A DNA stretch of 34,126 nucleotides from an uncultured Schlesneria sp. (lineage in GTDB: Bacteria > Planctomycetota > Planctomycetia > Planctomycetales > Planctomycetaceae): assembly GCA_903834925.1 (NCBI GenBank), contig CAILLA010000001.1:1-34126 (forward strand), written 5' to 3'. This document shows positions 21,633 through 33,973 of this stretch, piece after piece. Each line of letters starts with the position of its first letter. The stretch's first letter is position 1. Position numbers and translations under genes: made by a program. The notes beneath the pieces were generated by a model. The model was given only the letters and a program-made list of their open reading frames with translations, searched no databases and had not been told where the DNA came from.

Positions 21633-21974
21633 GATTCCTTAGAAACCAGAGAGGCTTTGCCTCTGACCAAAGTAGCCCTCTCGCTCCGCCGAGAGGATAG
21701 CCGAATTGAAGCAGAACTGGATTGGCACTTGAAAGCTCCGATGGATCGCTCGGTAATTGGCAATTCGGCTTTCTTCTCGGCGGAGCGAGAAGGCTACGAT
21801 GAAAGAAATCCTGAAACTCGACTCGTTCAGTCAAGTCTTAAACTCGAAGAAGTCCAAGATGATCACCCTAAGCCAGTTGTCCGAACAGCCTGTCGTCTGA
21901 CATAATCATTCCAATATAGAGATGCGTCCATGACGCGGACTTGTCTACAGTCACCACCTAACGAGGAATCCTTG
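21633..21974. other. Intergenic region carrying repeat copy B
   Basis: Apart from the stem at 21650-21664 and the dispersed repeat (next entry), only about 120 bp remain before the next gene. The promoter of the WD40 fusion gene should lie there. Confidence 0.5.
21672..21854 (+). repeat. Dispersed approximately 180-bp repeat with inverted arms, copy B
   Basis: The left arm 21672-21707 and right arm 21762-21797 are reverse complements at about 33 of 36 positions, so the 126-bp core can fold into one long hairpin. A tail of about 55 bp ending in TCGAAGAAGT is also shared with copy A at 7986-8166. Both copies lie in gaps, in the same orientation. Confidence 0.88.
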
Positions 21975-24086
21975 ATGAATCGCGTGTTGCTTGGACTTTT
22001 GGCGGCGCAGTTTTGGTTGTTCTCGTCGTTTGCGCTGGCAGCGGATTTGACTAAGGATCTCGGCGCTTTAGGTGGGGGCAAAGCGCCGACGAAGGGGCAT
22101 GAGCTAAAACAATTGACCCGTTGGTCGGGGCTTCCGAGTTGGGCTACCAGCGTTGCGTTCTCAGCCGATGACAAAACGCTGGCGATCGGCTTAAAGGACA
22201 AAATTCAACTTGTCGATCTCTCAACCAAATCGGTTGCGAAAACGATTGAACTGAAATCAGGACAAGTTCGAAGCCTGACATATTCACCCGATGGAAAAAC
22301 ACTGGCGGCGGGGAGCTACCAGAAGGCGACACTCTTGAACACCACCACTGGCGAGATTGCTCAGGAGTTAAAAGGTCATCGCGGATATGTCACCGGCGTC
22401 GCTTTTTCTCCTGATGGCAAACGACTCGCCACCGCCTGTGAGGACGAAGTTGGGCGAATCTGGACATTACAGAGCGAGCCGATGGTGCTCGTGCTGAAAG
22501 GGCACGGAAACCCTGTAACGGGTATTACATGGTCAGCAGACGGAACCCTCGTTGCAACGTCGGCGGGCGACGACATGCGACCAACGAAACCAGGACAGGT
22601 TAAAGTGTGGGACGCATCAACCGGATCAATCAAGCATCAATTCGAATTACATTCGAAAGCGGCGACCGGCGTTGCATTCTCTGCCGATGGTCACTTCCTG
22701 TTGTCGAGCAGCGTGGATGAACGTGTTAACGTTTACGATCTGATCAAGGATAAACCATTGGGATTTTTCGGTGGCCATTCCCGGCCGACGAATGCCGTGA
22801 CCGTACATCCTGACGAGGAAACAGCAATCAGTGTTAGCGGAGGTCGAGCCGTGGGTAAGAATGAACTGATCGTCTGGGAATTTGAAACGGGTGAACCGCT
22901 TGCTGGAATTGAAGCTCATGAAGCCAAGATCACGGCATTGGCGGTCTCTCACGACGGACGCCAGGTTGCTACAGCCGGTCAGGACCAATCGGTCGCACTC
23001 TGGAATGTTGCATTCCTGGCAGTGGGGCTTTCGGAACTGACCGCAGCCAAGACGGAATCGCGTCCGGCTGATGCAGCTGAGGCGGTTGCCGTTGCCACAG
23101 AACAAACAAACCAACAAGCCACAACGGCCGTTCAAAATGCCCCTGGCGAAACGAAATCAAAAATCATTCGCGTGGGAATTATTGGACTCGACACATCGCA
23201 CGCCCCGGCATTTGCCAAAACGATGAACGCAAATCCGCCGGTTCCAGGAGCGGAAGGATGCCAGATCGTTGCGGCTTATCCTAAAGGAAGCCCCGACATC
23301 AAGTCGAGTGTTGATCGTGTGCCGGGCTACATCGAAGAGATGAAAAAACTGAATGTGGAAATTGTCGAGTCGATCGACGAGCTATTGAAACGGGTTGATG
23401 CCGTATTAATTGAAACCAACGACGGTCGGCCTCACTACGAGCAATTGCTTCCCTGCTTGAAGGCGGGAAAGCCCTGCTTCATCGATAAGCCGATTGCCGG
23501 ATCACTCTCAGACGCGATCGCAATTTTTGAAGCTTCCAAAAAATATCGCGTACCGGTCTTCTCGTCGTCGTCGCTACGTTTCGGCAAGAATTCGCTCGCG
23601 GTCAGAGGCGGGTCCCTCGGAAAAGTCATTACTAGTGAAACCACCAGCCCTGCGTCACTGGAACCAACTCATCCCGATCTGTTCTGGTACGGAATTCACG
23701 GAGTCGAATCGCTGTTTACGGTGATGGGGACTGGTTGCAAATCCGTCGTACGTGGCAAGACTGCGGAAGGAAAGATTGAAGTCGTCGGTCAGTGGGCTGG
23801 TGGCCGTACCGGAACTTACCGCGAGGGTGGTGGCTACGTCGGAAAGGCCATTGGTGAGAAGGGAGAAAGCCCGGTTGGTTCCTACGACGGATACGACCCG
23901 CTGGTCTTTGCCATCGTCAAGTTCTTTCATACGGGTATCGTACCGGTGACTCCGGAAGAAACGCTGGAAATCTACGCCTTTATGGAGGCGGCAGATGAAA
24001 GTAAACGACAGAATGGTGCCAGCGTCACTCTGGAACGCGTGATGGAGAAAGCTAAGGCCGAAGCGGCGAAGAAATTGGAGAAGTGA
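21975..24086 (+). CDS. Secreted WD40 propeller fused to a Gfo/Idh/MocA-like domain
   Basis: This 703-residue protein starts at ATG 21975, behind GAGGA, with signal peptide [23 protein letters not shown]. Seven WD40-type repeats follow at about residues 45-355, each with an [19 protein letters not shown] strand and an ending such as VKVWD or VALWN; seven blades make a closed propeller. An alanine/glutamine/threonine-rich linker leads at about 397 into [15 protein letters not shown], the start of a Rossmann-like domain of the Gfo/Idh/MocA family. It has D504-K-P in FIDKPIAGS where typical members have EKP. The GxGxxG loop is altered to GIIGLDTSH, as in a planctomycete subgroup. Export suggests a periplasmic sugar- or polyol-modifying role; the substrate is unknown, and NAD(P) binding outside the cytoplasm would need tight cofactor retention. 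Confidence 0.85.
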
Positions 24087-27177: not shown

Positions 27178-29136
27178 ATGAATCACCTGAATGTAAGTCG
27201 CATCGCCCTCATCGGCTGGTTGGCCCTTGGTCTATCGGCTGCTGGTCTGGTGAGTGGTCTTTGCGGAAACGAGAAGCCGAAGATCGGCATAGATACTTCC
27301 GACACGATTTCCCTGCCAAAACCGTTACGAGTCAACGATCTGAACGGTCGCCAGCACGTGCTGCTGGATACACCCGAATGCCGCGGCGTGGTGCTGATCT
27401 TTCTGTCTACCGAATGCCCGATGTGTAACGAAGCCATTCCCAGACTAAACAAGCTGTCTACGCAATATCAGAAGCTGGGAATCGAATTGTTCGGGGTCAT
27501 CTCCGACCGAACGGTGACACGGCAACAGGCTTTGGAACATCACACGAAATTCCGAATCAAGTTTCCGATGATTCTCGACGCCGGAAAATCACTTCGCGAA
27601 TTGACCGGGGCGTCGCATACTCCCGAGGCGTTCGTCTTTGATCGCGACGGAAAACAGATTTATCGCGGTTTGATTGATGACTCGAGCGAGCGACTCGGAA
27701 AAAAGAATTCTGCGAAAAAGAATTATCTGGCGGACGCCATGCACGCCGCTGCTGGCAATCATCGATTGCCAGTCTCTCGGACTCAGGCAGTCGGATGTTT
27801 GCTGGAAGAACCAGGATCAGGAGCAACAGAGGGAGATGTCACATTCAACCGCGATATCGCCCCGATCATTTTCTCGAATTGCACAGCCTGCCATCGTGAT
27901 GGTGAAGTGGCACCGTTTGCTCTAACGAACTACGAACAAGTCTCGAAACGAGCAAAACAGATTGCCGATGTTGTCTCGTCACGGTTGATGCCACCCTGGA
28001 AACCGTCTCCCGATTATGGGCATTTTTCCGGCGAGCGACGTTTGTCTGAGACACAGATTTCACTCCTGAAGCACTGGTCCGAGACCGATGCCCCGGAAGG
28101 AGAACCTGCGGATCTACCACCGTTACCGAAGTTTCCGACCGGTTGGCAATTGGGTAAGCCCGACATGATCGTGAAAATGCCACGCAAATTCGCCTTGTAT
28201 GCCGAGGGGGTGGATCTTTACAAGCATTTTGTGATTCCGACCGGAATGACCCAGGACCGATTGATCCGAGCGATCGAGGTTCATCCCGGGAACCCCAAGA
28301 TCGTCCATCATGCACATATGTTTCTCGACAATACGGGCGAAGCCCGAGTGCTGGACGAGGGTGATCCGTCGGAAGGGTATACTCGGTTCGGTGGGCATGG
28401 CCTTTCGTCTGCGGCTTATCTCGGTGGATGGAATCCCGGGGCGACGCCTCATTTCTTTCCAAAAGGAACAGGGCGTCTGATGCCCAAGGGCGGCGATGCA
28501 GTTTTTCAGATCCATTATCACCCGTCAGGCAAACCGGAGTACGACCAGACCGAAATTGGGATCTATTTCGCACCACCCGATGCTCAACAACTAATCGCCG
28601 ATCTTGTGATCGGGAACGTCGACCTGCTGATTCCCGCAGGGGCCGACAATGTCGCGTTTACAGGCGAATACACAATTCCTTCCAACCTGTTATTGATGGA
28701 AATCCGTCCGCACATGCACCTGCTAGGAAAAAGTTACCAGGTACGCGGGCTGCTTCCGTCCGGCAAGGAAGTCCCGTTGATCAAGATCGAAGAATGGGAT
28801 TTCAACTGGCAGGACTCATACGTTTTTAATCCCGTGATTCGACTCCCCGTCGGTTCGAAGATCCAGATTCAAGTTGTTTACGACAATTCATCGAAGAATC
28901 CGGCGAATCCCAGTTCACCACCGAAAACAGTTTATTTCGGTGAAGAGTCGACCGATGAAATGTCCAATTGCGCCATTCGGGTCACAGCAGACACGTACGC
29001 CGAATTCCAGCAGGTCGTCTCTGATAACGCGAACTACTGGTCAGCACAGATGAAGAAGTACCTTGATCGCAACATGACTCCCGACAAAAAGGTTCGGGAA
29101 CGGCCTGCGACAAAAAGCGGGCGGACAAAAAACTGA
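27178..29136 (+). CDS. Redoxin / cytochrome c / PHM-like copper monooxygenase fusion
   Basis: This exported 652-residue protein (signal sequence about 1-29) has three parts. Residues about 45-190 are a thioredoxin-fold AhpC/TSA-like redoxin with C80-P-M-C83. Residues about 220-305 carry a haem c motif C235-T-A-C238-H239 and M271 as a possible sixth ligand. Residues about 325-640 are a copper type II monooxygenase. There H377 and H378 (IVHHAHMF), H446 (QIHYHPSG), H512 and H514 (RPHMHLLGKSY) and M595 (STDEMSN) match the CuH and CuM ligand motifs of peptidylglycine hydroxylase: HH, VHY, HxHxLG and DEMCN. The haem could feed electrons to copper in place of ascorbate (inference). ATG 27178 is chosen because the signal peptide starts there. 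It faces the PAL-like gene. Other monooxygenase substrates remain possible. Confidence 0.85.
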   Translation: MNHLNVSRIALIGWLALGLSAAGLVSGLCGNEKPKIGIDTSDTISLPKPLRVNDLNGRQHVLLDTPECRGVVLIFLSTECPMCNEAIPRLNKLSTQYQKLGIELFGVISDRTVTRQQALEHHTKFRIKFPMILDAGKSLRELTGASHTPEAFVFDRDGKQIYRGLIDDSSERLGKKNSAKKNYLADAMHAAAGNHRLPVSRTQAVGCLLEEPGSGATEGDVTFNRDIAPIIFSNCTACHRDGEVAPFALTNYEQVSKRAKQIADVVSSRLMPPWKPSPDYGHFSGERRLSETQISLLKHWSETDAPEGEPADLPPLPKFPTGWQLGKPDMIVKMPRKFALYAEGVDLYKHFVIPTGMTQDRLIRAIEVHPGNPKIVHHAHMFLDNTGEARVLDEGDPSEGYTRFGGHGLSSAAYLGGWNPGATPHFFPKGTGRLMPKGGDAVFQIHYHPSGKPEYDQTEIGIYFAPPDAQQLIADLVIGNVDLLIPAGADNVAFTGEYTIPSNLLLMEIRPHMHLLGKSYQVRGLLPSGKEVPLIKIEEWDFNWQDSYVFNPVIRLPVGSKIQIQVVYDNSSKNPANPSSPPKTVYFGEESTDEMSNCAIRVTADTYAEFQQVVSDNANYWSAQMKKYLDRNMTPDKKVRERPATKSGRTKN

Positions 29137-29144
29137 CTTCAGAG

Positions 29145-29174
29145 TAGGTCGTACTGGTCCAATTACCAGACCTA
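29145..29174. terminator. Weak hairpin between convergent genes
   Basis: TAGGT and CTGGT (29145-29158, with a 4-base bulge) pair with ACCAG and ACCTA (29165-29174) around a 6-base loop. It lies between the two convergent genes and is a modest candidate for shared termination. Confidence 0.4.
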
Positions 29175-29179
29175 TTCTT

Positions 29180-30112
29180 CTACGGCTTAGTCGTCTTACG
29201 CGCGAATTTTTGCAACCTCTTTCCATCGACTTCGGCAACAAACAGGTTTCCTTCAGCGTCAAACGCCAGCATGTGTGGCATTTGAAATTGGCCAACACCG
29301 CCCCCTTGCCGACCCCAGCGTTTCTTCACTTTGCCATTTTCATCTAACAGCAATACCTGACCCGCGCGACCGTCCGCGACAAAAAGCCTTCCTTCAGCAT
29401 CCAGCGCCATGCCATACGGTGCAAACCCTTTCCATATCGCCTGCCATTTTCCATCGCCGTCAAAGACTTGAATCCGGTTGTTTTCGCGATCACCCACCAG
29501 CACACGACCTTCACCATCAACGATGATGGAATGCGGCAGCTGAAATTGCCCCTTTTCGACGCCCGGTGTTCCCCAGGAGGAGATATACTCCCCGTCCTGA
29601 TTAAACTTCATCACGCGACTGTTGCCATAACCGTCAGAGATATAGACCTCGTCCTTTGGACCGAATGCAATGTCTGTCGGTTCGTCAAACTGATCTTTTC
29701 CAGTACCAGCAACGCCTGTTCCCAATGAGAGCAGCGGCTTGCCCGTGGGATCAAACTTATAAACGCGACTGCTTCCAACATCGGTGACCCAGACGTTGTC
29801 GTCGCGGTCGACCCTCAGACCATGCGCTGTCTTGATGAGTTCATCCCCCCACGCTCGCAGAAATTTCCCTTCCGAATCAAAACAGAGGATTGGTCGGGGT
29901 CCACGATGAAAGACGTACAGTTCACCCTTTTTATTTACGGCAACAGCAGAGCATTCAGCCAGACCAAACCCTTTGGGCAGTCGCAGAAATTGACGCTGCG
30001 GCTGTAGGGTGAATCCTAATTCCCTCGCCACTTTGTCTGCGGCGTTCGCGGATTGACAGAATAACAGGCAGGCAAAGATCGGAACGATCGCAAGTTTATG
30101 ACCAACCGTCAC
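29180..30112 (-). CDS. Secreted NHL propeller, PAL-like (peptidyl-hydroxyglycine lyase fold)
   Basis: This 310-residue protein starts at GTG 30112, seven bases after AGGGAG, giving signal peptide MTVGHKLAIVPIFACLLFC-QSANA. Further ATGs upstream lack such a site. Six NHL-type blades follow. It aligns by eye with the lyase half of animal PAM: FHRG (H69-R70), AHGL (H97) then NVWVTDV, FDEPTDIAF, ISDGYGNSR (Y162, R166), LPHSI (H194), DRENNRIQVF (R209, R213) and MPHM (H280). In PAL the corresponding HRG arginine, DGYxNSR tyrosine and DREN arginine are catalytic, and the three PH histidines bind zinc. All are kept, unlike in most generic NHL proteins. It would cleave hydroxyglycine-type hemiaminals outside the cytoplasm; the substrate is not shown. 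It faces the PHM-like gene 43 bp away. Confidence 0.82.
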   Translation of the reverse strand: MTVGHKLAIVPIFACLLFCQSANAADKVARELGFTLQPQRQFLRLPKGFGLAECSAVAVNKKGELYVFHRGPRPILCFDSEGKFLRAWGDELIKTAHGLRVDRDDNVWVTDVGSSRVYKFDPTGKPLLSLGTGVAGTGKDQFDEPTDIAFGPKDEVYISDGYGNSRVMKFNQDGEYISSWGTPGVEKGQFQLPHSIIVDGEGRVLVGDRENNRIQVFDGDGKWQAIWKGFAPYGMALDAEGRLFVADGRAGQVLLLDENGKVKKRWGRQGGGVGQFQMPHMLAFDAEGNLFVAEVDGKRLQKFARKTTKP

Positions 30113-30119
30113 GACGATT

Positions 30120-30125
30120 CTCCCT
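30120..30125 (-). promoter_or_regulatory. Ribosome binding site fixing the GTG start of the PAL-like gene
   Basis: On the minus strand AGGGAG lies seven bases before GTG 30112, directly ahead of an ideal signal peptide. It decides against the longer frame reaching 30424. Confidence 0.75.
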
Positions 30126-30275
30126 ACATTCGAACTTTCCGAAATCATACAACGGATTGACAGCTTTTGTTCGGAACATATGCGAGTTGATTGATCCAGG
30201 CTTTCAGCAGGTCTTACACCCGAATACAATACCGATCTGTGTGCTGAATCGTAACTCGCAAACAGGTAATCTGTT

Positions 30276-32564
30276 TTGGACTTTCCCGTGAAATTTCGTA
30301 CGACATTGTTGATCGCGATCCTCGCTTGGTTGTCGTGTCTCCGAGGCTCGATGACTGCTGCGGAGATTTCGTTTCGAAATGATGTGATGGCGGTCCTGTC
30401 GAAATCGGGATGTAACCTTGGCACGTGTCATGGAAACGCCCGAGGCAAAGGGGGATTTCAGATCTCTCTCAGGGGGCAAGACCCGACAGCCGACTTTGCT
30501 GTTTTGACACATGAACTTTACGGACGGAGGTCTAACTCAAACGATCCTGATCAAAGCCTTTTGTTACTCAAGCCATCGATGCAGATGGCGCACGAGGGGG
30601 GCAAGCGGTTTTCGGTCGATTCCTACGAATATCGATTGCTTCGCGAATGGATCGCTTCAGGGATGCCGAACGACCAATCGGATGCTCGACAATTGGTCCA
30701 ATTGAAAGTCACTCCGGACGAAGTTTTCCTGAACGACAAAACAACGCAGACATCAATTCGCTGGCAGCAGCAAATCACAGCAATTGCTATTTTTTCCGAT
30801 GGATCGTCGCGAGATGTTACTCCATTAGCTGTTTATGAAGTCTCACAACCCATTGCTGAGGTATCACATGACGGGATGGTCACGGGACATACCGCAGGCG
30901 AAGTCACAGTGATCGTTCGATATCTGCAACAACAAGTCGCGGTCCGGATTGCGTTTGTTCCAGAGCAACCCAACTTTGTCTGGTCGGCACCTGAGCCAGC
31001 GAACTTTGTCGACGAACTTGTCTTTTCGAAACTGCGAAAGATCAATGTTAACCCATCAGCCGTTTGCGACGATGCCACGTTCATTCGCCGAGTAACCCTT
31101 GATTTGCTTGGTCTTCCTCCAACTGCCGACGAGGCCAAACGATTCGTTAGCGATGCGTCGACAGGCAAACGGTCGGCTTTGATTGATTCGCTGTTGGAAC
31201 GGCCCGAATTTGCCGATTGGTGGGCAATGAAATGGTCTGATTTACTGCGCGTTGAAGAAAAAACACTCGACCGAAAAGGGGTCGAGAATTTTCATGGGTG
31301 GCTACGTGACGCGTTCGCCACACATAAGCCGCTCGACCAACTGGTTCGCGAAGTCGTGGCAGGACGCGGCAGCACTTATGAGGTTCCACCGGCGAACTTC
31401 TACCGGGCATTGCGAACCCCGTTTGAACGATCTGAAGCGGTTGGTCAATTGTTCCTTGGTGTCCGTTTGCAATGTTCCAAGTGCCATAACCATCCCTTTG
31501 ATCGCTGGACGCAGGACGATTATTACAGCTGGGGAAGTCTCTTTTCTCGCGTTGATTACAAGATCATCGAGAACCGCCGCCGTGACTCGAACGATTCACA
31601 CGAGTTCGATGGCGAACAGATCGTCTATTTGAAGGAATCGGGCGAAGCCAAAGATCCACGAATCGACAAGACTCGCGCAGCAAAGTTCCTGGGAGACGCG
31701 AAGAATCTTGAACCGCAACAGGACCCCTTAACGGGATTGGCGAAGTGGTTGACCGATCCGCATAACGACCGATTCGGACAAATGCTGGCCAATCGAACAT
31801 GGCAACAGGTGATGGGGCGCGGTATCGTCGATCCGATCGATGACTTTCGTGCAACAAATCCTCCGTCGAATCCGGCATTACTGAAAGCGCTGGCAAATCA
31901 CCTTGTTTTTGGTACGAGCGATGGAAAACCATCATCGGCTCAGCATGATAAGGGGTTCAATTTGCGTAGTCTGTTGCGAGTGATCTTGAACTCGCGCACG
32001 TACCAGCTTTCTTCCAACATCAACGAATCAAACCGTGACGATGAAACGAATTTCAGTCACGCGTTTGTTCGACGGCATTCCGCCGAACAACTGCTGGACG
32101 CAACAAGCCAGGCCCTGGGTGTCCCACTCGATTTTGCCGGATACCCATCAGGTCGTCGAGCTGCTCAATTGCCCGGCGTCCCTTCAAACCGCGATCGGAA
32201 TAACAGTCAGAATGACGCCGATCGATTTCTGAAGCTGTTTGGAAAGCCGCCGCGACTGCAATCCTGCGATTGTGAGCGTTCGGACGAAACAACGCTCGGT
32301 CAGACGTTTCAGCTTGTCAGTGGTTCGCTTATCAATCGCATGCTGACGACGAAGGGGAATTCACTCGAATCACTGGCAACGTCCGGAAAAACATCGTCGG
32401 AGATTGTCACTGAGCTGTATTGGATGGCGATTACGCGGTCACCCGGACAGGATGAATTATCTGCGACAGTCCAGTTTCTTGAAAAGTCAAAAGATCGTCG
32501 CCAGGCGATTGAAGACATTGCTTGGGGATTGTTTAATTCGAACGAGTTCCTGCTACGTCGATAG
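30276..32564 (+). CDS. PSCyt1-like / Big_2 / DUF1549 / DUF1553 exported protein
   Basis: This 762-residue planctomycete-type protein has a signal sequence at about 5-28 (TTLLIAILAWLSCLRGSMTAA). A cytochrome-like region follows with C46-x4-C51-H52 in SKSGCNLGTCHGNARGKGGF. A bacterial Ig-like (Big_2) domain at about 145-235 has ITAIAIFSDGSSRDVTPLAVYEV. DUF1549 (PSCyt2) at about 245-440 has TFIRRVTLDLLGLPPTADE and RLQCSKCHNHPFDRW with a CxxCH motif. DUF1553 (PSD1) at about 500-755 has LTGLAKWLTDPHNDRFGQMLANRTWQQVMGRGIVDPIDDFRATNPPS. These proteins pair with DUF1501 partners across the phylum; their biochemical role is unproven. Start is TTG 30276 with AGG about nine bases upstream; GTG 30288 is the alternative. 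It precedes the DUF1501 gene by a few bases. Confidence 0.92.
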   Translation: MDFPVKFRTTLLIAILAWLSCLRGSMTAAEISFRNDVMAVLSKSGCNLGTCHGNARGKGGFQISLRGQDPTADFAVLTHELYGRRSNSNDPDQSLLLLKPSMQMAHEGGKRFSVDSYEYRLLREWIASGMPNDQSDARQLVQLKVTPDEVFLNDKTTQTSIRWQQQITAIAIFSDGSSRDVTPLAVYEVSQPIAEVSHDGMVTGHTAGEVTVIVRYLQQQVAVRIAFVPEQPNFVWSAPEPANFVDELVFSKLRKINVNPSAVCDDATFIRRVTLDLLGLPPTADEAKRFVSDASTGKRSALIDSLLERPEFADWWAMKWSDLLRVEEKTLDRKGVENFHGWLRDAFATHKPLDQLVREVVAGRGSTYEVPPANFYRALRTPFERSEAVGQLFLGVRLQCSKCHNHPFDRWTQDDYYSWGSLFSRVDYKIIENRRRDSNDSHEFDGEQIVYLKESGEAKDPRIDKTRAAKFLGDAKNLEPQQDPLTGLAKWLTDPHNDRFGQMLANRTWQQVMGRGIVDPIDDFRATNPPSNPALLKALANHLVFGTSDGKPSSAQHDKGFNLRSLLRVILNSRTYQLSSNINESNRDDETNFSHAFVRRHSAEQLLDATSQALGVPLDFAGYPSGRRAAQLPGVPSNRDRNNSQNDADRFLKLFGKPPRLQSCDCERSDETTLGQTFQLVSGSLINRMLTTKGNSLESLATSGKTSSEIVTELYWMAITRSPGQDELSATVQFLEKSKDRRQAIEDIAWGLFNSNEFLLRR

Positions 32565-32590
32565 GCGCGTTCACAGTGCTGGTGGAGTTA

Positions 32591-33973
32591 ATGAAAAACA
32601 TCATGTGGAATGGATCTGGTCTCATCCCGCGACGTAAGGCGCTCCAGATCGGTGGGACGGGGATGTTTGGTTTGACCCTTCCCAGGTTGATGCGTGCGGC
32701 GGAACGGACCGAAGCAAAGCCGGGTCGAGCCAAATCGGTTATCTTCCTCTATCAGTTCGGCGGACCAAGTCATCTCGATACTTTCGATCCGAAACCAATT
32801 GCTCCCGCAGGAGTGCGAAGTCACTACGGAGTGATCGACACGTCGGCACCGGGAATCCAGATTTGTGACCAATTGCCGAAGACGGCTCAAGTCATGAATG
32901 ATGTAACACTCATTCGGACCGTCCATCACACGATGAAAAATCATAATCCCGCGGCGTACTACGCGCTGACGGGACATGCGCCTCCGTTGGATGATATTCG
33001 ACTGCGCGATTCGCAAGACTTGTTTCCCGCTTACGGCTCTGTGGTTGATCAATTGGCCCCGAACATAAACGGTATGCCGACGTTCGTGGCGTTTCCTCAT
33101 GTGATGCGTGATGGTGAAATCACTCCGGGCCAGCATGCGAGTTTCCTCGGGAAAGGGCACGATCCGCTACTGGTGACGTCAGATCCGAATGATCGTCGTT
33201 TCTCATTACCGGAATTGAGCCTGCCCAGCGGCTTGACCGCCGAACGGTTACATGACCGGCGCGAGATTCAACAGCTGATCAATCGACAAGTTAACCAACT
33301 CGAACAGTCGCCGGCCGCCCGCGGCCTGGATGCGTACTACGAAAAGACGTTGGGGATGCTTAATTCCTCCAAGGTTCGCGATGCGTTTAATCTGGCTGCC
33401 GAGCCGCAATCGGTACGAGACAAATATGGTCGGACGACCTACGGCCAAAGTTGCCTTCTGGCAAGACGGCTGGTCGAATCAGGCGTGAAATTTGTCAACG
33501 TTTATTTCTCAAGCAATATCGGTGGACGGCGCAACGAGGGAGGTTGGGATACGCACGGTTTCGATAATACGCGGATGTATCCGATCCTGTCGGAATATCA
33601 GTTGCCGATGACCGATCAGACGCTACCGACCCTGATTACCGATTTGAAAGAACGAGGCATGTTCGATGACACTCTGATTGTCTGGATGGGGGAATTCGGA
33701 CGGACGCCGCGAATCAACGACAACATCAGCCGCGACCATTGGCCGCAGTGCTACACCGCTTTGTTGGCAGGTGGCGGGGCCAAACGGGGCTTTGTTTATG
33801 GTACGTCGGACAAACAGGCGGCCTACCCTGATAAAGATCCTGTTCAACTGGACGATCTGATGGCTACGGTGTTTGCCCTGATGGGAATCGATCCGCAAAC
33901 GGAGCTTCACGATAAACTCAATCGACCGATACTTGTCTCTGCTGGGCGGGTTGTGACCGGGGTCATGGCTTGA
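32591..33973 (+). CDS. DUF1501 protein with Tat-type signal
   Basis: This protein of 460 residues begins MKNIMWNGSGLIPRRKALQI, a twin-arginine-type export signal (PRRKALQIGGTGMFGLTLPRL). The mature part has VIFLYQFGGPSHLDTFDPKP, TVHHTMKNHNPAAYYALTG, GGWDTHGFDN and IVWMGEFGRTPRINDNISRDHWPQC, the hallmark DUF1501 motifs; the fold is related to alkaline phosphatase and sulfatase enzymes. A GTG at 32576 is an alternative start; ATG 32591 follows a close GGTGGAG site. It forms an operon with the DUF1549/DUF1553 gene, and the two are expected to work together outside the cytoplasm. The substrate is unknown. Confidence 0.92.
   Translation: MKNIMWNGSGLIPRRKALQIGGTGMFGLTLPRLMRAAERTEAKPGRAKSVIFLYQFGGPSHLDTFDPKPIAPAGVRSHYGVIDTSAPGIQICDQLPKTAQVMNDVTLIRTVHHTMKNHNPAAYYALTGHAPPLDDIRLRDSQDLFPAYGSVVDQLAPNINGMPTFVAFPHVMRDGEITPGQHASFLGKGHDPLLVTSDPNDRRFSLPELSLPSGLTAERLHDRREIQQLINRQVNQLEQSPAARGLDAYYEKTLGMLNSSKVRDAFNLAAEPQSVRDKYGRTTYGQSCLLARRLVESGVKFVNVYFSSNIGGRRNEGGWDTHGFDNTRMYPILSEYQLPMTDQTLPTLITDLKERGMFDDTLIVWMGEFGRTPRINDNISRDHWPQCYTALLAGGGAKRGFVYGTSDKQAAYPDKDPVQLDDLMATVFALMGIDPQTELHDKLNRPILVSAGRVVTGVMA

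Follow-up and report, generated by a model that had tools for sequence, protein, structure and literature searches.

The gene pair

The window analysed here, the whole 34,126-nucleotide stretch of contig CAILLA010000001.1 (assembly GCA_903834925.1) from an uncultured Schlesneria sp. of the Planctomycetota, carries two convergent genes whose products resemble peptidylglycine hydroxylating monooxygenase (PHM) and the amidating lyase (PAL). Gene A joins a redoxin domain, a cytochrome c domain and a copper domain with the PHM fold, and gene B encodes a PAL-like NHL propeller (Table 1). A first-pass annotation, made from the sequence alone, had proposed that the two form a split bacterial peptide-amidation system of exported proteins. 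Its observation is confirmed, as both frames lie where it placed them, in convergent orientation and 43 bp apart, and the motifs it read are all present (HH, IHYH, HMH and DEMSN in gene A; HRG, AHGL, DGYGNSR, PHS, DRENNR and MPH in gene B). Its PHM-like label for gene A is apt for the copper domain and overlooked the redoxin and cytochrome parts, while its claim of export agrees with the signal-peptide-like N-termini that both products have on inspection. Its interpretation is partly supported by the evidence set out below.

Gene B has an alternative frame at 29180-30112 on the minus strand, with a GTG start. Purifying selection acts on both genes: in comparisons with three congeners, the ratio of nonsynonymous to synonymous substitution rates (dN/dS) is 0.043-0.057 for gene A and 0.050-0.061 for gene B, with dS near saturation (1.0-1.4). 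At 29154-29169 the spacer contains a terminator-like stem of 5 pairs, of which 3 are GC. We rate it as weak because the region holds 7 such sites against 4.2 in shuffled sequences (standard deviation 1.9), and a scan for sigma-70-like promoters gave no match.

Table 1. Features of the gene pair in window coordinates. Fractions give conservation among the 49 gene-B homologs described in the text.
Feature	Position	Strand	Basis or remark
Gene A, redoxin - cytochrome c - PHM-like copper monooxygenase	27178..29136	+	ATG start, 652 aa, probably exported
Signal-peptide-like hydrophobic N-terminus, gene A	27178..27261	+	By inspection
AhpC/TSA-redoxin (ResA/TlpA-like) domain, residues 52-171	27331..27690	+	Pfam AhpC-TSA 8e-14, Redoxin 2.3e-12
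Covalent haem c motif CTACH, residues 235-239	27880..27894	+	Monohaem CxxCH
PHM-fold copper monooxygenase domain, about residues 330-603	28165..28986	+	Foldseek 3mll/1sdw/1phm; profile match to rat PHM
H377-H378 = rat H107/H108, CuH site	28306..28311	+	Alignment with rat PHM
H446 (IHYH) = rat H172, CuH site	28513..28515	+	Alignment with rat PHM
R510 = rat R240	28705..28707	+	Alignment with rat PHM; clade-specific
H512-M-H514 (RPHMH) = rat H242-T-H244, CuM site	28711..28719	+	Alignment with rat PHM
M595 (DEMSN) = rat M314, CuM ligand; N597 = rat N316	28960..28968	+	Alignment with rat PHM
Spacer between both stop codons	29137..29179		43 bp; genes convergent
Gene B, PAL-like six-bladed NHL propeller	29180..30148	-	ATG start, 322 aa, probably exported
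H292 (MPH) = rat PAL H786	29273..29275	-	Aligned with rat FDMPHD; 49/49
R221 (DRENNR) = rat PAL R706, catalytic dyad	29486..29488	-	Alignment, rat letters reconstructed; 48/49
H206 (PHS) = rat PAL H690	29531..29533	-	Alignment, rat letters reconstructed; 49/49
Y174 (DGYGNSR) = rat PAL Y654, catalytic dyad	29627..29629	-	Alignment; 47/49
H109 (AHGL) = rat PAL H585	29822..29824	-	Alignment; 49/49
R82 (HRG), probably = rat PAL R533	29903..29905	-	HRG of both aligned only in a non-scoring stretch (-0.6 bits)

Gene A is a distant relative of PHM

The copper domain of gene A reproduces the metal sites of PHM despite considerable divergence. Searched with a 20-row profile of this domain, rat PHM scores E 2.9e-8 and its six ligands all fall in register; the five histidines and one methionine of gene A align one to one with the rat copper ligands and are invariant across the 20 aligned copper domains. 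The AlphaFold model, built from an alignment of relatives (predicted local distance difference test, pLDDT, 82), has PHM as its top fold match in the PDB (Foldseek E 4.0e-12, template modelling (TM) score by target 0.69), with identities of 16-18% in these matches. The copper-ligand set named by the first-pass annotation is thus upheld. Of the Pfam families that it named for a check on the copper domain, PF03712 reaches 17.2 bits over the full length and 18.9 bits with the domain alone, under its gathering score of 23, and a PF01082 search with gene A returned no match. At E 0.01 the two models match 16 and 6 of the 20 copper-domain rows, and in the NCBIfam search no model matches the copper domain of gene A. 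Because the Pfam scores fall under the curated cut-offs and NCBIfam yields no copper-domain match, we regard gene A as a distant relative within the PHM superfamily. Not every member of the wider family keeps the copper ligands: one fetched relative (from G026) has His-Pro replacing His-His. In a separate subgroup of copper monooxygenases (L155, L159, L160), HAHY replaces HMHL at the CuM histidine pair.

Outside the copper domain, the redoxin carries CPMC at residues 80-83. This CxxC is present in five of the seven gene-A orthologs and lost in the other two (G014, G003), which speaks against the catalytic thioredoxin being essential. The haem-binding CxxCH is kept in all seven, G003 included, and the contrast with the CxxC marks the redoxin as the less essential part of the protein. 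C235, C238, H239 and M271 are invariant in a 24-row alignment, outside which G003 falls, and Met271 (27988-27990, plus strand) is a possible distal haem ligand. The Pfam match to Cytochrome_CBB3 (0.027) is under the gathering score.

An arginine and an asparagine confined to the gene-A clade

The seven gene-A orthologs, all of one genus, form a clade distinguished by two residues that it shares with rat PHM. The comparison draws on a fetched homolog set of 106 distinct sequences, the PHM-like places listed in genomes of the class numbering at least 150. Arginine at the position of rat R240 occurs in 7/7 members of the clade and in 0/99 other distinct homologs; asparagine at the position of rat N316 occurs in 7/7 and in 0/82 of the others that are readable there, 17 being unreadable. 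A second view comes from named GTDB genomes, where the loci are the best 80 of 227 and the homologs are partly the same genes as in the fetched set. Five Schlesneria loci carry both residues, and among 76 other homologous stretches, which span Planctomycetota, Armatimonadota, Acidobacteriota, Verrucomicrobiota and others, none has the arginine and none of the 69 that are readable has the asparagine. Overall, 12 of 311 copper-domain positions are invariant in the clade and shared by at most 2% of sequences elsewhere; ten of these align to a rat residue, and two, R510 and N597, are identical with it. From crystal work on PHM we take R240 and N316, together with Y318, to contact the peptide, with R240 meeting its carboxylate; we looked for support for the roles of these three residues in the literature available and found none.

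In a 107-row tree, drawn with a midpoint root and with no rooting claimed, the gene-A clade falls inside a 28-member subgroup with support of 100/98, and its stem measures 0.87 changes per site; its link to the nearest relatives is weak (88/56), and the rat branch is long. Because the clade sits on a long stem among bacterial homologs that have neither residue, R510 and N597 look to have been gained within it rather than retained, and the likeness to PHM at these positions looks convergent. The length of the stem would fit a functional shift of the clade.

Gene B is a PAL-like propeller with paralogs

The sequence match between gene B and PAL (3fvz) has an E value of 5.6e-33. Its AlphaFold model, also built from an alignment of relatives (pLDDT 89), has PAL 3fvz at rank 1 in the PDB (E 6.1e-23, TM score 0.77/0.75, 27% identity). 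Against a partly reconstructed rat PAL sequence, gene B shows 34% identity over 229 columns, and it is 33-37% identical to four plasmid-borne bacterial proteins that carry NCBI's PAL name. Among NCBIfam models, ScyF scores best, with 120.9 bits against a cutoff of 350.

The positions of six PAL residues were followed through 49 distinct gene-B homologs from the fetched loci, each counted once and with about 180 or more residues aligned; these are mostly the best match per genome and hence a biased sample. H585, H690 and H786 of rat PAL, which we take to be the zinc ligands, have histidine equivalents in gene B and in every homolog. The tyrosine and arginine that are also kept correspond to the catalytic dyad of PAL defined by crystallography, where rat Arg706Ala loses 97% (excerpt of PMC10303134). 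The rat letters around 690-706 were reconstructed, and their numbering agrees with the rat letters printed in an alignment. The sixth residue, R82, lies outside the aligned range of a second rat alignment; the R533 equivalent is arginine in 47/49 homologs. With PAL as the top fold and the histidine trio and Tyr/Arg dyad in place, the PAL-like label of the first-pass annotation stands.

Its further contention, that the complete active-site set is what discriminates gene B among NHL proteins, does not stand. Among 20 other NHL places in four genomes (G000, G003, G015, G007), six have the full set RHYHRH, two of these six in the window's own genome, while four have none of the six residues and the rest are mixed. 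The residue set therefore fails to single out gene B, as paralogs in its own genome carry the set too. One gene-B homolog on a long branch (L018, from G009) has serine in place of the equivalent of the catalytic Arg706.

A possible amidation pathway

These features can be assembled into a pathway. In it, gene A would be an exported copper monooxygenase whose electrons arrive through the c-type haem that it carries, joined in most orthologs by the redoxin, instead of from free ascorbate. Since ascorbate is generally not made by bacteria, the chain of redoxin, haem c and copper suggests the route through the haem. The enzyme would hydroxylate the alpha-carbon of a substrate whose carboxylate may be held by R510 and whose amide may be held by N597, which would make it either a peptide ending in glycine or an N-acylglycine. 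Gene B, as an exported PAL-like propeller presumed to bind zinc, would then split the hemiaminal to a primary amide and glyoxylate. What the data show is the genes, their domains, folds and residue sets, and the restriction of R510 and N597 to the clade among the sequences compared; export, metal content, the path of the electrons, the class of substrate, the hand-over from gene A to gene B and the amide as product are inferred.

This pathway is the most economical way to account for all of the features, and hydroxylation by gene A feeding amide release by gene B is the best explanation we can offer, though we advance it tentatively. We are more doubtful of the larger proposal that this lineage re-evolved peptidylglycine or acylglycine hydroxylation, in which a haem- and thioredoxin-fused enzyme would have gained the arginine and asparagine and would feed a PAL-like lyase that was already present, so that Schlesneria would have an exported amidation system free of ascorbate. 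If true, it would show a route by which PHM activity emerges from a large bacterial family of copper monooxygenases. It would also provide a PHM that is fused to haem and may be independent of ascorbate, and would suggest that planctomycetes export amidated products. Mutation of R510 and N597 would test the substrate class of gene A directly.

Adjacency, distribution and rival explanations

Several observations weigh against the amidation pathway, beginning with the arrangement of the genes. Their convergent orientation means that they are not one transcript. Genes A and B are adjacent in five of the seven genomes with gene A (G000, G001, G002, G005 and G003), and all five pairs sit inside a longer syntenic block of genes for a Cys/Met-metabolism enzyme dependent on pyridoxal phosphate, an aminotransferase, a WD40 protein, PSCyt2/PSD1 and DUF1501 proteins. 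Five of the seven genomes are Schlesneria records, and the window's own genome and G003 belong to the same genus. In the remaining two genomes the pair is unlinked: in G014 the genes lie inside different contigs, and in G004 about 2 kb of contig downstream of gene A lacks gene B, a fragment of which ends another contig. An ortholog of gene B is nonetheless present in all seven genomes, at 66-100% identity, with G004 having just this fragment. The conservation of adjacency expected by the first-pass annotation is therefore found in five of seven genomes, but only genus-deep and within general synteny, so that adjacency cannot serve as proof of coupling.

The wider distribution points the same way. 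Among 397 genomes of the class, a sample that G004 lies outside, 6 have a gene-A ortholog above 75% identity, after which identity drops to 48%. Gene-B homologs (E up to 1e-60) are present in 91 of these genomes and in 37 of 185 genera, and 85 of the 91 have no gene-A ortholog, which implies that gene B has another role or partner there. At family level, PHM-like genes (E up to 1e-60) are found in 187 of the 397 genomes, and they show no association with PAL-like genes: 36 genomes have both, with an odds ratio of 0.67 and a Fisher p of 0.12 that is rough because the genomes are related. The genome survey proposed by the first-pass annotation shows the two families together no more often than expected. 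The idea of a conserved third neighbour of gene B also lacks support, as no family recurs in more than 2 of 10 loci outside the syntenic block, within 7 kb. PAL-type sites are, moreover, multicopy. The resemblance to PHM is itself incomplete, since rat Y318 corresponds to A599 in gene A and to asparagine in G003, and two rat matches among ten positions are not rare by themselves (about 9% at 1/20 each, by estimate). The weight of the R510/N597 match would lie instead in which two residues these are, given the roles that we take them to have.

Much of this evidence favours an alternative in which two unrelated periplasmic enzymes are chance neighbours, gene A acting on some other carboxylate substrate and gene B keeping an older PAL-like role, for example hemiaminal lysis for other enzymes. 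The adjacency belongs to a syntenic run within one genus, gene B is far more widespread than gene A, and both genes survive where they are separated. PHM-like and PAL-like genes are neighbours in only one of the 14 genomes assembled in 1 to 20 contigs, G003; elsewhere in this set the closest such pair is 36 kb apart (G053). No further pair within 60 kb on one contig beyond the five gene-A pairs was found among at least 150 PHM-like and 94 PAL-like places, in assemblies whose fragmentation hides pairs. The window's own genome has 6 genes for copper monooxygenases, and 12 NHL matches on 10 contigs; only the pair in the window shares a contig. Chance neighbourhood sits less easily with the identity of the clade-specific R510 and N597 with rat PHM. 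Six copper genes and a handful of PAL-type genes would, furthermore, produce such a pair with a chance that we put on the order of 1 percent per genome, though the genomes and windows to pick from were many. Because gene B occurs in 36 genera that yielded no gene-A ortholog, we consider separate roles about as likely as the amidation pathway.

Two further alternatives are much less probable. Gene B could be a binding or scaffold propeller rather than an enzyme, as NHL propellers often are binding modules: in a plain sequence search PAL ranks only 9th, below vertebrate TRIM and fly Thin NHL domains, and in the fold search the Thin and TRIM71 propellers are close behind PAL. Such a role is hard to reconcile with the retention of each of the six PAL residues in 47-49 of the 49 homologs, with their complete absence from four of the 20 other NHL paralogs and with PAL as the top fold match, and we think it improbable. 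Gene A, in turn, could resemble dopamine beta-hydroxylase (4zel, at rank 22 among its fold matches) or another small-molecule copper hydroxylase, or be a redox or sensor protein, with its arginine and asparagine incidental, which the loss of Y318 and the large size of the copper family in these bacteria would allow, but the two complete copper-ligand sets and the confinement of R510 and N597 to its clade make this quite unlikely.

Neighbouring genes

Gene B is flanked by PSCyt2/PSD1 (DUF1549/DUF1553) and DUF1501 genes (30276-33973, plus strand), and in G015 (L069) a gene-B ortholog directly follows a DUF1501-like gene. A 718-aa frame at 21930-24086 (plus strand) combines WD40 repeats (about residues 58-361) with a GFO_IDH_MocA Rossmann domain (413-544), and its homologs sit in the syntenic block of four congeners. 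A metagenome-assembled genome of the Planctomycetales has a weak NHL match (32% identity; L212:9707-10423) at most 4 kb away from a PHM-like gene, likely by chance.

Comparison with known systems

To our knowledge, it is in eukaryotes that PHM and PAL carry out copper-dependent amidation of peptides, and a search of open-licence full text, outside which most subscription papers fall, turned up no bacterial PHM and PAL pair. Gene A shares with the PHM domain of PAM (1phm, 1sdw, 3mll) its fold, the six copper ligands and the equivalents of R240 and N316; it differs in its low sequence identity, in having alanine for Y318 and in its fused redoxin and haem c domains. Gene B shares with PAL (3fvz) the propeller fold, the histidine trio and the Tyr and Arg dyad, but it has no equivalents of Cys634 and Cys655, is a separate gene and belongs to a family that is multicopy in planctomycetes, mostly without a gene-A partner. 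The bacterial proteins named PAL by NCBI are of the same kind as gene B; the name was given by similarity, and we saw no assay of such a protein in the open-licence literature searched. Drosophila PHM presumably has neither a haem nor a redoxin domain. The Drosophila PHM and PAL activities are encoded by separate genes (excerpt of PMC6123673) and are likewise two proteins, but these are animal genes; the split arrangement is thus not new as such.

Bacteria are known to solve related chemical problems with other enzymes. PosC/PflC and MovX carry out oxidative amidation of ribosomally synthesized and post-translationally modified peptides, in which alpha-carbon oxidation leads to a C-terminal amide; they are iron enzymes, and the available excerpt of PMC12636437 describes no separate PAL-type lyase for them. 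Methylguanidine demethylation by MgdH/MgdL couples a bacterial oxygenase to a dedicated hemiaminal lyase, but the oxygenase is a 2-oxoglutarate/Fe(II) enzyme and the lyase is stated, in the excerpt of PMC12508155, to have no sequence homology to PAL. Finally, human NHLRC2, which has planctomycete homologs, joins a thioredoxin fold and an NHL propeller (excerpt of PMC6107167). There the two folds reside in one protein, whereas in the pair described here the thioredoxin fold is carried by the copper protein, gene A, and the propeller is encoded separately by gene B.

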